Part shown: piece after piece, positions 3,587 to 26,366 of the stretch
How positions within the stretch are numbered: the stretch's first letter is position 1
Layout of the letters: every line of letters begins with the position of its first letter
Position numbers and translations under genes: made by a program
IMG/VR virus record: IMGVR_UViG_3300009183_000266
Span: 1-29,544 of that record
Strand: one strand, 5' to 3'
DNA length: 29,544 nt
Source of the DNA: a virus
The notes under the pieces: generated by a model
Seen by the model: the letters and a program-made list of their open reading frames with translations, nothing else
Databases searched by the model: none
Told to the model about the DNA's origin: nothing

Positions 3587-3939
3587 TGAACCCAGTCGTC
3601 AACTACACCTACGCAGCTAGGCTTGAGCGAATCATCGACGGTGATACGGCAGTCTTAATGATTGACTTGGGTTTTGACATGCAGACACGGCAGCATGTTC
3701 GCTTTAAAGGCTACAACGCCCCAGAAATGCACAAATCGCTCGCAATCGAAGGCATTAGAGCCAAGGCTGAACTGGAAACGCTTCTATCTGGCAAGCAACT
3801 GGTGGTCACGACAACTCAAGACTTTCAGCAGACCTTTGCACGCTATCTGGCCGATGTTTACGTCATTCACCAAACCGGCATCGAATCTGTGTCAGAACAT
3901 ATGATCAAGTATGGATTCAACGTCAAACAGGGGGATTGA
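3586..3939 (+). CDS. Staphylococcal-nuclease-like (thermonuclease, SNase family) endonuclease
   Basis: 117 residues forming one SNase (OB-fold) domain. The calcium and catalytic elements are all visible. IIDGDTAV (residues 16-23) supplies Asp18, Asp20 and Thr21. VRFKGYNAPEM (38-48) supplies Arg39 and Glu47, equivalent to Arg35 and Glu43 of staphylococcal nuclease. FARYLADVYV (84-93) supplies Arg86, equivalent to Arg87. The family hydrolyses DNA and RNA with calcium. No signal peptide is present, so it should act in the cytoplasm of the infected cell, for example on host DNA, or be carried in the virion; both are inference. It starts in a TGATG overlap with the preceding gene, and its stop is just before the next ATG. 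Confidence 0.88.
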   Translation: MNPVVNYTYAARLERIIDGDTAVLMIDLGFDMQTRQHVRFKGYNAPEMHKSLAIEGIRAKAELETLLSGKQLVVTTTQDFQQTFARYLADVYVIHQTGIESVSEHMIKYGFNVKQGD

Positions 3940-3940
3940 T

Positions 3941-4201
3941 ATGAGCGAAGACGAACTAAAGAATCTGCCGAGCCTTCAGGGCTACATCAACGTCGAAGAG
4001 CTTAAATTAACGCTCCTAAAGGCGTTCGGAACAGGCTCGGTTTCGGCTTTGATTCTAACCCTTCTGACTGTCATCCTCGAGAACCTCAGCAAGATTTATG
4101 TAGGTCCGGCAGCAGCAGTCGTAATTTCAGTCGCATCCGCTTTAGCAGCATTGCTTAAGGCTCATCAAGTCGGGATGAAGTATTTACAAGAGGGCGAGTA
4201 A
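3941..4201 (+). CDS. Small membrane protein, holin candidate
   Basis: 86 residues from the ATG at 3941, chosen over the in-frame ATG at 3911 because it sits after a GGGGG Shine-Dalgarno and just beyond the nuclease stop. An acidic N-terminus (MSEDELKNLPSL) is followed by two hydrophobic helices at about 35-52 (VSALILTLLTVILENL) and 57-75 (AAAVVISVASALAALL), then a short charged tail (KAHQVGMKYLQEGE). Two-helix topology with a charged C-terminus is typical of phage holins, but no named family can be confirmed. An apparent promoter overlaps its 3' end. Confidence 0.6.
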   Translation: MSEDELKNLPSLQGYINVEELKLTLLKAFGTGSVSALILTLLTVILENLSKIYVGPAAAVVISVASALAALLKAHQVGMKYLQEGE

Positions 4202-4212
4202 CAGGTTATAAT
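4183..4212 (+). promoter_or_regulatory. Candidate sigma70 promoter inside the late cluster
   Basis: TTTACA (4183-4188), an 18-bp spacer and a perfect TATAAT (4207-4212) lie at the end of the holin-like gene, 25 bp before the ATG at 4237. This would give separate expression of the genes from 4237 onward. Confidence 0.5.
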
Positions 4213-4236
4213 ATGCTTATATGAAGAGGCCTCGAA

Positions 4237-4572
4237 ATGTCGTCTTCCGCCGCCACCGTGTCAGCATACGACCGCACCGCACCCCAAGACCCCAATCGGA
4301 TCTTAGCGATGCAAACACCCGACCCCTCGTTCGACCTCCTGAACCCCAATGTGGGATGGGTGATCGGCCCAATTGCTGTCACAACAAACTGGGTGGGGGC
4401 CAATCTGGTGAATGTCGATCTGAGCTGGGCAGAGTTGCTGTACAGCGTTGCGGCTGTGATATATGCAAGTGCGGGCTTAGTGAAGAGCTTCAAAGAGAAG
4501 CGGCAATCCAACTCCTCCCAGACATCCAAATCATCTTCGACTGACAAAGAAGAGACAATCGACCTGAAATAA
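4237..4572 (+). CDS. Small single-helix membrane protein, unknown function
   Basis: 111 residues with one hydrophobic segment at about 65-82 (AELLYSVAAVIYASAGLV), preceded by a polar N-terminal region with a GWVIGPIAVTTNWVGANLV stretch. It is followed by a Ser/Lys-rich charged tail (residues 83-111). Another frame starting at 4221 is open, but its product is Arg/Pro-rich and lacks structure, so this frame is preferred. The Shine-Dalgarno is weak (GAAGAGG). The candidate promoter at 4183-4212 lies just upstream. It could be a holin, antiholin or spanin-type component by position, but nothing in the sequence decides this. Confidence 0.5.
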   Translation: MSSSAATVSAYDRTAPQDPNRILAMQTPDPSFDLLNPNVGWVIGPIAVTTNWVGANLVNVDLSWAELLYSVAAVIYASAGLVKSFKEKRQSNSSQTSKSSSTDKEETIDLK

Positions 4573-4658: not shown

Positions 4659-4898
4659 ATGTTTATCGAAGCCATTTTCTTGTACGCCGCACAGCCGGAA
4701 TGCCCAAAAGGCAACTGCAATCCAGTTCAAGTAATCACGACAACAACTACGGTTGAAAAGACTGTGTCGCCGCTGATCACTTTGCCACCTCGCCCAGGTA
4801 ATGGTGGTCGTCGCCCAAGGCTATTTCTTTTTAATCGCAAGCCAGCGGCAACGAAAATGAATTACATCTACATCTGTCCCAACGGGGCATGCAAATAA
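4659..4898 (+). CDS. Small Cys-containing protein, unknown function
   Basis: 79 residues with a hydrophobic start (MFIEAIFLYAAQ) followed by a Cys pair (ECPKGNC). The middle is Thr-rich (VITTTTTVEKT), then comes a basic Pro/Gly/Arg stretch (PPRPGNGGRRPR), and a second Cys pair sits at the end (YICPNGACK). The two CPxGxC-like motifs at opposite ends could form disulphides or bind metal. The hydrophobic N-terminus is too short for a convincing signal peptide. The Shine-Dalgarno is GAAAGGTGAG. The same CACTTGAAAGGTG leader also precedes the tail chaperone gene (13200-13212). The stop overlaps the next ATG (TAATG). Confidence 0.45.
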   Translation: MFIEAIFLYAAQPECPKGNCNPVQVITTTTTVEKTVSPLITLPPRPGNGGRRPRLFLFNRKPAATKMNYIYICPNGACK

Positions 4899-5080
4899 TG
4901 TTTACCCAACTCATCATACGCCTGATGACCCCACTGATCGTGGAAGTGATCAAGGAATTGCTCCAGCAACTCGCCAGGGGCGAAGTCGTGAGCCTCAACG
5001 AGGAAACGGTTAAAGCCGCAATGGTTCAGCGTGAAGACGCTATTTCCAAAGCAGTAGCCGCAGCGACAGCTGGCCTGTGA
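4898..5080 (+). CDS. Small helical protein, unknown function
   Basis: 60 residues from the ATG at 4898, preferred over 4889 because it forms a TAATG stop/start overlap with the preceding gene. The N-terminal half is amphipathic to hydrophobic (MFTQLIIRLMTPLIVEVIKE), and the C-terminal half is charged then Ala-rich (ISKAVAAATAGL). Probably helical throughout, with no recognised family. Its stop (TGA, 5078-5080) overlaps a GTG that starts the next tiny gene. Confidence 0.5.
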   Translation: MFTQLIIRLMTPLIVEVIKELLQQLARGEVVSLNEETVKAAMVQREDAISKAVAAATAGL

Positions 5081-22204: not shown

Positions 22205-23002
22205 TCAAACCTTTCTGTGGTCAAACTTGAGAGACTCATACCCATCAACATCAATGAATATGTGCATATCTTGAAACACGCTTGTTGCATAGACGTAGAT
22301 TTCTCGAGCTATCGCCACAGCCAGTCGCCTGATTTCCAGGTCAGCGTGAATCGAACCCCTCTGTTCAAGGATATTTCGCCATGCCCTTAGATTCCCAGAC
22401 ATGAACAGGTGAGTTTCAATCGAGTTGGGCAGAACAGATCTCGCGGCTTCGCGAGCCTTTTTGCGGATATATGTCAACGCTTCACGGTCAGCTGTCTCGT
22501 CAGGATGATCTTCCTGCCATCTCCGGCTGATAGCTGTTGTGCAAACATTGAGCATCCGGTCATAAGAGGCAGACGCAGCAGTCACTTCTGATTTGAAGCA
22601 TTGCTCCGCGACAAGATCTCTAATGATCAGAGGTGGAACAATGTACCCCAGGTTGTCAGGCTCAACGTATCTTTGAGATAGTTGCGAGAAAGCCGTTCCA
22701 GCCCTGTGACGGATCAACTCATGAGTCAGGCTTCGAGATACACCTGTGATCAATAAGCCCACGTAGGAGTGTTCCAGGACGCTTCCATGACCAACCTCGA
22801 GTATATGCCCAATGTAACCCCTATTGCCTCCAGGACGAGGGTTTTTGAACGACTGATAGCATACTCGGCCAGCGAACTCGGGAATGTGGTCCAAGCTGTG
22901 TGTGTTCTGGGCGTGCATGCCTGATGCATAATCTTTAAGATCGTAGTCTCGGAAAACCGACACTGTTGCAACTTTTACCTTTGGTTCGTATATCAACTGC
23001 AT
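22205..23002 (-). CDS. thyX: Flavin-dependent thymidylate synthase ThyX
   Basis: 265 residues from the ATG at 23002. This start is chosen over 23080 because it overlaps the upstream stop by 10 bp, has a GGGCG-containing leader, and begins the conserved sequence (MQLIYEPKVKVATV). The ThyX motif is RHRAGTAFSQLSQR (residues 98-111), the RHRX8S variant, preceded by VLEHSYVGLLITGVSRSLTHE. The enzyme methylates dUMP to dTMP using methylene-tetrahydrofolate, FAD and NADPH, raising thymidylate for phage DNA synthesis. The protein has normal length and all recognisable motifs, so it should be active. Confidence 0.93.
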   Translation of the reverse strand: MQLIYEPKVKVATVSVFRDYDLKDYASGMHAQNTHSLDHIPEFAGRVCYQSFKNPRPGGNRGYIGHILEVGHGSVLEHSYVGLLITGVSRSLTHELIRHRAGTAFSQLSQRYVEPDNLGYIVPPLIIRDLVAEQCFKSEVTAASASYDRMLNVCTTAISRRWQEDHPDETADREALTYIRKKAREAARSVLPNSIETHLFMSGNLRAWRNILEQRGSIHADLEIRRLAVAIAREIYVYATSVFQDMHIFIDVDGYESLKFDHRKV

Positions 23003-23286
23003 GACGAATTCGCCCTTTGTTCGATGACGTAAAAATGGAATGCCTGAATCGCTTCTTTCCTCGACGGATGACCTATCCACTTCAATCCAAAGACCCCGTC
23101 TTTCGCAAAGACCCCGTCAGTAAGCACATAAACCATCAGGTAATGCAAGGCGTCCTTGTCATAGTAGAAGATCTCGGCCTTATAAGGCTCATCCACCAGA
23201 GTGATCGTAGCCCCGTCTATCGTTGACCATCTGTTGTCTGGCTTCATTTCTCTGATTAGCTCTCCAACCTGGTTCTTTTCCAGCAT
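22993..23286 (-). CDS. Small protein of unknown function upstream of thyX
   Basis: 97 residues with a good Shine-Dalgarno (AAGGA, 9 nt before the ATG). An alpha/beta composition (TIDGATITLVDEPYKAEIFY, then YLMVYVLTDGVFAKDGVFGL) ends in a helix with SRKEAIQAFHFYVIEQ. No family is recognised. It overlaps thyX by 10 bp, and its first 98 bp overlap the end of the upstream gene in a different frame. Confidence 0.55.
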   Translation of the reverse strand: MLEKNQVGELIREMKPDNRWSTIDGATITLVDEPYKAEIFYYDKDALHYLMVYVLTDGVFAKDGVFGLKWIGHPSRKEAIQAFHFYVIEQRANSSCS

Positions 23287-23494: not shown

Positions 23495-25954
23495 TTACTC
23501 TTGCGATCCAGCCTGGTTCGACCTGTACTTTTGAATCGCTGCTGCTGCGTCACCAAACTGCAATCCCCGAGCCTTTTCAGGCTTCATCCCCAGTGAAATG
23601 AGGTAGTTCAACTGTTTAATCGAACACAGCCCTGAGTTTCGCCTGTCAATGATCTGGCCGATCAACTGCGAAGCCTGACGCTTGGTCATGTTGTTGACAT
23701 CTGCCATTCCAGACTTGTTTAGAAAATCCTTCTGGGCGGGAGTCGCAAGCTCTCCGAATCGGTTGGCGTTGGTCAGCATGGCTCGGGACACACCCAAAGA
23801 AGCAGCAAGCTCAAATGGATTAATCTCGACCCGCCGATAACTCATGTCCAGCCTGGCAACCGGAACCTTAATCTCCTGCCTTTGCTTCCTTTCCGTCTTG
23901 GCTCGCTCCACGGCTTGCCAGAGATCAACACCCTCTTCGACCAACTCCTCAGCACGCTTGGAATCAACCTCCTCACAATCTGTCAATGAGCTTGGCCCAA
24001 TTAGGTCCATGTCTGTTGTGTGTGAGAAATCCAGAATCAAACAGTCCGATTTGTCTTTGCAAAGCCTCGTCCCTCGACCAACCATCTGGGCATAAGCGAT
24101 ACGGCTTCGAGTGGGCTTCAACACAACACAGTCTGTAGGCTTGTCATCAAACCCTTCCGTCAGGATCTGGCAGTTGACAAGGATCTTTGTGAGACCGTTT
24201 TTGTAACGCTGAATTGTGTTGTCACGGTCAGGCTTATCGCCGGAAACCCAGTCCGCAGCATGTCCCAGTTGCTTTAAGGCATCAGCCATGGCAATCGAGC
24301 TACCAACGTCAGGCATGAAGACAATGATCTTCTTTCGATCCTGGATCTCTTTGCTGATCGCGTTTGCTAGTAACTCGATGGCTGGCTGGATCTTACGTCC
24401 AAGATCACCCTGAGCGAAGTCGCCATTCTTGCCCGTTGTTTTGCACCCCCTCAGGTCAACCCCCAAAGAACACCGGACAAACTTGACAGGTGATAGAAAT
24501 GGCCCAGCAGGATCATGGATCGCGTCATAAAGCGAGTAGCTGTAAACAACATCCTCAAAACGCTTCAGGCTCTGTCCATCAGGTCGATCAATCGTTGCAG
24601 TGACCCCAACAAGTTTTGCGTCAGGAAAGTGGTCATAAACAGACGAGTAAGTCTTATTGGACTCTCCTGCGTGATGGCAGTTGTGTACTAATACGCCGTT
24701 GGCAAAGTAGTTATTGTTTCCTTCAACTTCGAGGTTATAAGTAACACCTCCTTCACACAGTCCTCCGAATGTTCCATCACCTGTTTGTTCGTGAAACGCA
24801 ACACTTTCCACCCTTGCGAATTCAGACAAGCCTCCTTTCGCCGATCCTGCTCTCTTCTTGGTATCGAGTTGTGCGATTGACCGTCTATCTCGACCGCTAG
24901 CCGAATGTCCTTGCAACCCAAATCTATTTTGTAATGATTCGGAGTCTTGAAGAGTTGCCGTGATTCCTGCGTTGTTAAAACCGTAATAGGAGCCAAGCCA
25001 GTCAGATCCGACAGAGTCTTTTCGGCAACCGACATGCCCCTCCCATTCCCCCCTTGCACTGGGGGTTTCCAGCCGATCTCCTTTAGCCTGGCTTTCTGCT
25101 TCTCCCGAACCTCCTCCCTCTTCATTGGATTGTTGGACTTCATACGACCAGACGCATACTTCCGGTTTGTTGCTGCCATCCTTAGAGAGGAATCGATCCC
25201 CTGACATTCTTTTGAGCATGTCGCTCGATAACGCCCGTAACCCATTTCCGTCTGTTTCCCGCACACCTTGCATTTGCCATCCATAAACCATGTCTCCTGG
25301 AGAAAGATCGCAAGCCTTAACCCATTCCCGATCTCGGGAAAACACTGGGTGATTCGGCGTGACAGTCATTGCTGAACCGTTTGAGAAACGTACAGTCATT
25401 AATTCCGATGGAACTGAAACCAGTTTTTTCTTAACCGACTTCATTTCAATTTTGCGGCTTGACTCGTTGAATGTAGCGACCAGGTCGCCATTGCAAATTC
25501 TTTCAATAGGAACCCCATCCACAAGCGTCCCAGCGGGAAAACATTCATCTGTGATGATCAACTGAAAGTCGTCTGGCTGATACCTTTTGCATCGCTTTGT
25601 CATGGACTGAATTGTTGTGCAAACCACATGCGGATCGCCCAGGGCAAACCCGTGATGGGAACCCTGTTCACGACCCACCATCAAGCCGCACAGTTCAAAC
25701 GTATCTATTGCCTGTTTTACAAGTTCCGTACGGTGGACCGCGAACAAGGCTCGAGAAATCAACCCTTCCTCAATCAACTGACGAATCAAGACTCCTACCG
25801 TTACAGTTTTCCCCGCGCCGGTCGCCATCTGGAGAATTCCAGCCTTATGATCATCCTCGTAGACCCATGACCTAATCTTAGCAATCGCCTCATCCTGGTA
25901 CGGATAAGTTGAAAACTCGCAACTCTGGATAGCAGAATAGGTTAGCTCAGACAT
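23495..25954 (-). CDS. SF2 DEAD/DEAH-type helicase interrupted by an intein
   Basis: 819 residues from the ATG at 25954 (an in-frame start at 26017 would overlap the upstream gene by 71 bp; 25954 overlaps it by 8). Numbered from 26017, the motifs are: Q-like YPYQDEAI (38-45), Walker A MATGAGKT (64-71), motif II IITDE then C-H-H split by the intein (D157, E158, C447, H448), motif III VTATID (472-477), IV IIVFMP (564-569), V ILTEGFDD (618-625) and VI QMVGRGTRL (644-652). After splicing the protein would be about 531 residues. It resembles SSL2/COG1061-type translocases used in phage replication or recombination. The C-terminus carries a helical QASQLIGQIIDRR repeat region. The helicase should be inactive until the intein leaves. 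Confidence 0.92.
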   Translation of the reverse strand: MSELTYSAIQSCEFSTYPYQDEAIAKIRSWVYEDDHKAGILQMATGAGKTVTVGVLIRQLIEEGLISRALFAVHRTELVKQAIDTFELCGLMVGREQGSHHGFALGDPHVVCTTIQSMTKRCKRYQPDDFQLIITDECFPAGTLVDGVPIERICNGDLVATFNESSRKIEMKSVKKKLVSVPSELMTVRFSNGSAMTVTPNHPVFSRDREWVKACDLSPGDMVYGWQMQGVRETDGNGLRALSSDMLKRMSGDRFLSKDGSNKPEVCVWSYEVQQSNEEGGGSGEAESQAKGDRLETPSARGEWEGHVGCRKDSVGSDWLGSYYGFNNAGITATLQDSESLQNRFGLQGHSASGRDRRSIAQLDTKKRAGSAKGGLSEFARVESVAFHEQTGDGTFGGLCEGGVTYNLEVEGNNNYFANGVLVHNCHHAGESNKTYSSVYDHFPDAKLVGVTATIDRPDGQSLKRFEDVVYSYSLYDAIHDPAGPFLSPVKFVRCSLGVDLRGCKTTGKNGDFAQGDLGRKIQPAIELLANAISKEIQDRKKIIVFMPDVGSSIAMADALKQLGHAADWVSGDKPDRDNTIQRYKNGLTKILVNCQILTEGFDDKPTDCVVLKPTRSRIAYAQMVGRGTRLCKDKSDCLILDFSHTTDMDLIGPSSLTDCEEVDSKRAEELVEEGVDLWQAVERAKTERKQRQEIKVPVARLDMSYRRVEINPFELAASLGVSRAMLTNANRFGELATPAQKDFLNKSGMADVNNMTKRQASQLIGQIIDRRNSGLCSIKQLNYLISLGMKPEKARGLQFGDAAAAIQKYRSNQAGSQE
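24680..25543 (-). mobile_element. Intein inserted in the helicase DECH box
   Basis: 288 codons from Cys159 to Asn446 (numbering from 26017). Block A is CFPAGTLVDG, block B is SAMTVTPNHPVFSRDREW (Thr and His of the TxxH motif), followed by DLSPGDMVYG. Block F is VTYNLEVEGNNNYFANG and block G is VLVHN with Cys447 as the +1 nucleophile. All splicing residues (Cys1, His of block B, penultimate His, terminal Asn, Cys+1) are present. In-frame residues from about 250 to 420 lack any endonuclease motif and are Gly/Ser/Glu-rich, because that DNA encodes an endonuclease in another frame. Confidence 0.9.
24688..25284 (-). CDS. EDxHD/Vsr-type homing endonuclease encoded out of frame inside the intein
   Basis: 198 residues in the +1 frame relative to the helicase-intein, wholly inside the intein. 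The domains are: an N-terminal zinc finger (C5-x2-C8 and C23-x3-C27); a NUMOD3-like DNA-contact segment (SNNPMKREEVREKQKARLKE, 50-69); and a Vsr-like nuclease core with Asp121 (KIDLG), Glu132-x-Asp134 (VEIDG), His138, Asp147 and GWKVLRF (158-164). A Shine-Dalgarno AGGAG lies 9 nt before the ATG, formed by the intein's Pro-Gly-Asp codons. The stop is two codons before the intein's last residue. This family acts as homing enzymes near introns and split inteins, so it probably mobilises this intein. Confidence 0.88.
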   Translation of the reverse strand: MDGKCKVCGKQTEMGYGRYRATCSKECQGIDSSLRMAATNRKYASGRMKSNNPMKREEVREKQKARLKEIGWKPPVQGGNGRGMSVAEKTLSDLTGLAPITVLTTQESRQLFKTPNHYKIDLGCKDIRLAVEIDGQSHNSIPRREQDRRKEACLNSQGWKVLRFTNKQVMEHSEDCVKEVLLITSKLKETITTLPTAY

Positions 25955-26366
25955 AATACCCGTGTCCCCAGCATCCGTTGCAATGAGCAATCGTTGGGTC
26001 TTCACCAGTCCCATCACAAATCCCGCAAATCCTCCAGTTCCTGGGCGACCTAATCACTGGCCGTTGCAATCTTGCAAGTAGTGGGCCAGGCGTTTCGCCT
26101 TCAGCGTTTAGCAAGCAGATCTGGGACTGGGCCAGAAGTTCATGGGCTATCTTATGTAGATATAACCATGCGTTCATATCACGGGCAAGAGCAGACCTTT
26201 TGGGCTTCGCCAATCGCTCGTAAATGTACTCGTACTGTCGTTCATCATCATCCTTATGAGTCTCAAAAGCCTCTCGAATAATTGTGTATTTCAATTCCGC
26301 ATCTGGCACAGCCTTTTCAGCGTCCGAAAAAGCATTTCTGATTTTCTGATCTGCATCCATCATCAC
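25947..26366 (-). CDS. Helical protein with a DnaJ-type zinc-finger tail
   Basis: 139 residues. A strong AGGAGG precedes three ATGs in a row (26366 used here). The N-terminal 100 residues are helical and charged (DADQKIRNAFSDAEKAVPDA, then DDERQYEYIYERLAKP). The last 30 residues carry two CxxCxGxG-like motifs (CGICDGTG and CNGCWGHG), the DnaJ central-domain zinc pattern. It may be an adaptor that brings a partner to DNA or to the adjacent helicase, whose start it overlaps by 8 bp; this is inference. It follows a terminator, so it may be less expressed than the genes upstream. Confidence 0.65.
   Translation of the reverse strand: MMMDADQKIRNAFSDAEKAVPDAELKYTIIREAFETHKDDDERQYEYIYERLAKPKRSALARDMNAWLYLHKIAHELLAQSQICLLNAEGETPGPLLARLQRPVIRSPRNWRICGICDGTGEDPTIAHCNGCWGHGYYV

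Follow-up and report, generated by a model that had tools for sequence, protein, structure and literature searches.

The window, that is, the whole stretch of DNA analysed here, corresponds to a single virus record 29,544 bases in length, whose open reading frames (ORFs) by inspection make up a phage-like gene set. Its minus strand carries a helicase gene with an inserted intein and, inside the intein, an overprinted nuclease ORF (Table 1). The helicase ORF comprises 840 codons, intein included, with a GTG start as called, and was matched by the PHROG profile "DNA helicase" at E = 6.8e-64. Another ORF of the minus strand, at 22205-23080, resembles the flavin-dependent thymidylate synthase ThyX via an RHRxxxxSxxSQRY-like motif.

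Table 1. Features of the helicase locus, in window coordinates
Feature	Position	Strand	Remarks
Host gene, RadD-like SF2 helicase (ResIII and Helicase_C)	23495..26017	minus	Pfam and PHROG profile matches
Intein, 288 aa (864 nt)	24680..25543	minus	C1 FPAGTL ... VLVHN, then C+1; Intein_splicing and TIGR01443 matches
Hint N-terminal half, intein residues 1-92	25268..25543	minus	pLDDT >90 through residue 90
Linker, intein residues 93-237	24833..25267	minus	Predicted disordered (pLDDT <50); nuclease-coding in the +1 frame
Hint C-terminal half, intein residues 238-288	24680..24832	minus	Residues 238-285 also nuclease codons, doubly constrained
Nuclease ORF, 198 aa	24688-25284	minus	ATG start; 198 codons plus stop; DUF559/EDxHD-type
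Internal Shine-Dalgarno AGGAG	25294..25298	minus	9 nt upstream of the nuclease ATG, inside the intein SPGD motif

The intein is inserted into helicase motif II, between ...ITDE and CHHAG..., and the insertion is in frame: no stop interrupts the host ORF across it, and intein-less alleles exist. Pfam Intein_splicing matched in the helicase frame (E = 1.3e-12), and TIGR01443 matched as well. Among 45 sequences the splicing residues C1, T62, H65 (block B TxxH corresponding to T62xxH65) and N288 were invariant and H287, the first residue of the C-terminal HN, nearly so; C+1 was found in nearly all loci. Modeling with AlphaFold2 from the 45-sequence alignment yielded a Hint fold composed of residues 1-92 and 238-288, both with high pLDDT, and Foldseek matched this fold to the NpuDnaB, RecA, NrdJ-1 and gp41-1 inteins. 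The host gene holds an intact intein, which, judging from the intact splicing residues, would be capable of splicing.

Of the 864-nt intein, the first 259 nt (86.33 codons) precede the nuclease ORF and the last 8 nt follow it; the ORF is in the +1 frame relative to the intein. This frame is open for 225 codons, the intein frame is without a stop, and the third frame is full of stops. An initial annotation of this DNA had described a 198-codon +1-frame ORF within a 288-codon intein, with both frames open for about 600 bp; coordinates and frame agree with our results, and the strand, which had not been given, is the minus strand. Profile matches to DUF559 (E = 2.9e-15) and MTES_1575 (E = 4.4e-11) cover the C-terminal half of the ORF, and the DUF559 match was found in 70 of 70 family members. 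The residues E132, D134, H138 and D147, previously proposed as an EDxHD/Vsr core, are all invariant in these 70 nuclease homologs, as is D121. At the N terminus, a CxxC...CSKEC motif resembles a zinc finger, as had been suggested, and is followed by a helical, DNA-binding-like middle part with RMKxNNPM and GGNG. The segment called NUMOD3-like in the initial annotation had no NUMOD3 match in Pfam, hence this label denotes a resemblance only.

The AlphaFold model of the nuclease (pLDDT 87.4) found its best matches among solved structures in, e.g., 3hrl and I-Bth0305I (PDB 3r3p), the EDxHD homing endonuclease of a phage group I intron. The catalytic fold is shared with the latter (Foldseek probability 1.00, TM-score 0.69 on target), whereas sequence similarity is weak (profile E = 0.012) and no intron was found in the window. 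As no Rfam family matched in the window at the gathering threshold, we rejected the possibility of a group I intron-encoded nuclease. Both the catalytic residues and the fold place the protein among the EDxHD, Vsr-like (DUF559) nucleases; EDxHD nucleases have been described before (PMC3943268). The 198-aa ORF encodes a complete nuclease of the EDxHD/DUF559 type, which probably spreads the intein.

We used the nuclease protein alone as search query, with no reference to the intein. It matched 43 phage records (from Vibrio, Corynebacterium and Pseudomonas phages, plus a few weak ones), at least 80 IMG/VR loci and 11 loci from bacterial contigs, while the plasmid collection contained no match to the nuclease. 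Among the matches listed, both intein halves were detected in 97 loci, and all 97 had the same +1 register. With better profiles and additional scans, the set grew to 160 loci among the matches listed, of which 135 were overprinted without a stop in the intein frame, 9 kept the +1 register with intein-frame stops, 3 were truncated at the end of their contig, 5 distant loci had the nuclease in frame and a few lacked an intein. Loci repeat between scans, and the matches listed contain 105 distinct inteins; at 90% nuclease identity, the loci reduce to 92 overprinted, 3 fractured, 3 in-frame and 3 intein-less loci. None of the homologs examined showed stops in the 198-aa frame.

The insertion site was almost always between DE and C of the Walker-B/motif-II sequence, and the hosts were SF2 helicase and clamp-loader (DnaX-type) genes; hence, the overprinted element is not restricted to helicases. 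Overprinted inteins in clamp-loader genes were observed at five loci (L135, L136, L104, L140 and L144), of which L136 was assigned by visual inspection; its intein frame contains one stop. Beneath the nuclease match, the phage annotations list one helicase, a "coil" or a hypothetical protein, and the nuclease is absent from them; about 40 annotated phage genome records contain this overlooked gene. Some host genes carry more than one intein: a sister phage helicase (L002, about 3590-4330) has a second one in Walker A (CISGDAIV...VVAHN, between ATG and CGKT) besides the overprinted one, and in L095 (1921-5709) an in-frame LAGLIDADG intein and an overprinted intein lie within one helicase gene. 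The five distant inteins with an in-frame DUF559-like nuclease (L147-L151) occupy a different site (C-extein CRCMALP) in what is putatively a phage head protein gene. In-frame fusion of the nuclease occurs only in these distant relatives and is excluded for the overprinted family.

Selection keeps both reading frames open. For 72 non-redundant loci, we permuted synonymous codons within each nuclease, keeping protein and codon usage, and compared the stops in the other frames. No stop was observed in the intein frame vs 599.6 expected from the shuffles, whereas the third frame of the same loci contained 1050 stops vs 961 expected. The fractured loci served as a natural control; here, observed and expected intein-frame stops were 14 vs 15.2, 12 vs 15.0 and 17 vs 21.3. 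That the long ORF is spurious, or that sequencing indels moved an in-frame nuclease out of its frame, is vanishingly improbable, since the same frame occurs in independent isolates, assemblies and genera and both frames have family matches (Intein_splicing in the helicase frame, DUF559/MTES_1575 in the nuclease frame). We rejected both readings on the conserved +1 register and the avoidance of intein-frame stops; the recurrence of the +1 arrangement in about 100 distinct sequences excludes the pair of sequencing indels that, according to the initial annotation, might hide an in-frame endonuclease.

Substitution rates by codon position, calculated from 18 independent pairs, were 0.20/0.15/0.30 at intein positions 1/2/3 before the overlap, where position 3 was fastest. 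Within the overlap they were 0.36/0.19/0.16, and the fastest position was intein position 1, which is position 3 of the nuclease. The dN/dS-like ratio, based on a neutral simulation, was 0.31 for the nuclease in the middle part and 0.48 for the intein before the overlap. Therefore, the middle part is constrained as nuclease and merely kept stop-free as intein. The folded C-terminal half of the splicing domain shares its DNA with the last ~47 codons of the nuclease; in this C-terminal overlap the position-specific rates were 0.16/0.11/0.13, the overall rate was halved (0.10 vs 0.19) and neither frame was free, indicating that this part is constrained twice.

To initiate translation, the nuclease could use its own start. 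The best nuclease start in the 105 inteins had its median at intein codon 86 (89 ATG, 10 GTG and 5 TTG), and a Shine-Dalgarno match of at least 5 nt was present at the start in 55 of 105 inteins vs 5% at internal start codons. The strength of the match varies among inteins, and the count is inflated as each start was picked as the best of several candidates; this evidence is therefore supportive, not conclusive. If ribosomes instead underwent programmed +1 frameshifting close to where the N-terminal splicing half ends, an IntN-nuclease fusion would result; this would fit with the nuclease frame being open 27 codons upstream of the ATG in the window and somewhat upstream of the start in several relatives examined. 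However, we regard such frameshifting as improbable, given the near-constant place of the start codon, often behind a good Shine-Dalgarno sequence, and the use of the same start region by fractured relatives although their IntN ends in a stop.

Intein-less alleles, which the initial annotation had proposed to look for and which are expected for homing, were found in phage phi674 and in eight relatives of the window's helicase. The helicase of phi673 carries the element and that of phi674 does not; outside of an exact, clean insertion, the two are 98.9% identical. This presence and absence of the intein was reported before, without mention of the nuclease (PMC6132909). Differences adjacent to the junction include the +1 codon, which is GTG (V) in phi674 vs TGT (C) in phi673, and the eight intein-less relatives likewise have V where carriers have C. 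The pattern fits an insertion with co-conversion of the +1 residue, the direction of this change being presumed, and the distribution of alleles suggests cleavage at the empty site. Alternatively, the nuclease might no longer drive homing and be a relic kept open by frame entanglement, or have been co-opted; vertical descent can sustain intein-carrying lineages, and nuclease activity is a prediction. We find this hard to reconcile with the invariant catalytic residues in 70 diverged proteins, the strong purifying selection on the nuclease and the nearly identical phages that differ by the presence of the element, and consider it unlikely. Two further arrangements were observed at intein-less helicases. 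In L073 (about 4880-4960), the nuclease gene lies directly upstream of such a helicase, whose motif II is shifted in frame by one base precisely where the target site lies (GATGAA CGGA CACCAC), possibly a scar of cutting or an assembly error. In a Spirochaetaceae contig (L097, 3900-4900), a free-standing nuclease lies just upstream of an intein-less helicase with a DESHH motif.

In textbook inteins, splicing domain and nuclease domain are joined in a single reading frame. The element in the window shares with these the Hint fold, the nuclease coding sequence between blocks B and F, the insertion in a conserved motif of a gene for DNA metabolism and, as far as can be inferred here, mobility by homing. 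It differs in that the nuclease forms a protein of its own, encoded in another frame, and a disordered linker occupies the in-frame stretch. In phage methylase genes, the ShiLan domain and the Pacc40 insertion contain an out-of-frame HNH endonuclease, for which the authors found no splicing domain (PMC11855218). Common to these insertions and to our element is a selfish nuclease that lies out of frame inside an insertion keeping the host gene open. In contrast to the HNH enzymes without splicing domain, the window has a complete Hint intein around an EDxHD/DUF559 nuclease, with codons partly shared. A full-text literature search turned up no account of an intein whose endonuclease is overprinted, though such an intein may have been noticed earlier in Dassa 2009 or Gorbalenya 1998 on non-canonical inteins or in Gosselin 2025 on actinobacteriophage inteins of non-canonical architecture.

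Three non-redundant relatives (L058, L060 and L082) are fractured. They encode the N-extein with an 88-aa IntN, followed by the nuclease and by a separate IntC with the C-extein; the nuclease is in the same +1 register, and its start codon precedes the IntN stop at codon 88. Dassa et al. in 2009 reportedly described fractured genes and split inteins in which an EDxHD nuclease separates the two halves. A free-standing EDxHD-type nuclease at the split point is shared, whereas in the window helicase and intein form one uninterrupted ORF, not two, and the nuclease is wholly overprinted. The overprinted, fractured and nuclease-upstream forms constitute the series that would be expected if overprinted inteins can become fractured. 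In a quick nuclease tree, the fractured clade was placed among the overprinted ones. However, a topology in which all overprinted sequences form one group could not be rejected and reached a higher likelihood (p-AU 0.966), hence we do not claim the direction from overprinted to fractured. The initial annotation's suggestion of an intermediate between a mini-intein and a fractured gene gains real support from those relatives in which nuclease and register are unchanged but the gene is fractured at intein codon 88.

The concept of an intact intein with a nested out-of-frame nuclease is supported by homologs, two-frame selection, structure prediction and intein-less alleles. We assign a probability of roughly 0.88 to a mobile intein that carries its homing endonuclease in the +1 frame of the same DNA and not as an in-frame domain, and infer that this element is expressed, splices, cleaves and homes. 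Translation in the helicase frame would yield a helicase with a Hint domain interrupted by a disordered linker of ~145 residues; the intein would excise itself and thereby restore helicase motif II, as the intact splicing residues suggest. Ribosomes starting at the internal Shine-Dalgarno sequence and ATG at intein codon 86 would produce the free 198-aa EDxHD/DUF559 nuclease. During co-infection, the nuclease may cut intein-less helicase genes at the conserved motif-II DNA, and repair would copy the entire double-coded element along with a short adjoining sequence, which, judging from the intein-less alleles, supplies the C+1 needed for splicing.

Phages phi673 and phi674 both grow on a laboratory strain of Corynebacterium glutamicum, and the question of homing is directly testable in this pair. 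Splicing and mobility would be divided between two proteins, yet locked into one DNA stretch, so that neither function is easily lost without harming the other. At even odds, we further propose a widespread class of phage and bacterial inteins in which the homing endonuclease is a fully overprinted +1 gene and has folded, doubly constrained codons in common with the C-terminal half of the splicing domain, and which is an evolutionary source of natural split inteins, as a nuclease that is already equipped with a start of its own leaves the linker frame free to gather stops. This would show concretely how contiguous inteins may turn into split ones, which serve as major tools in biotechnology.
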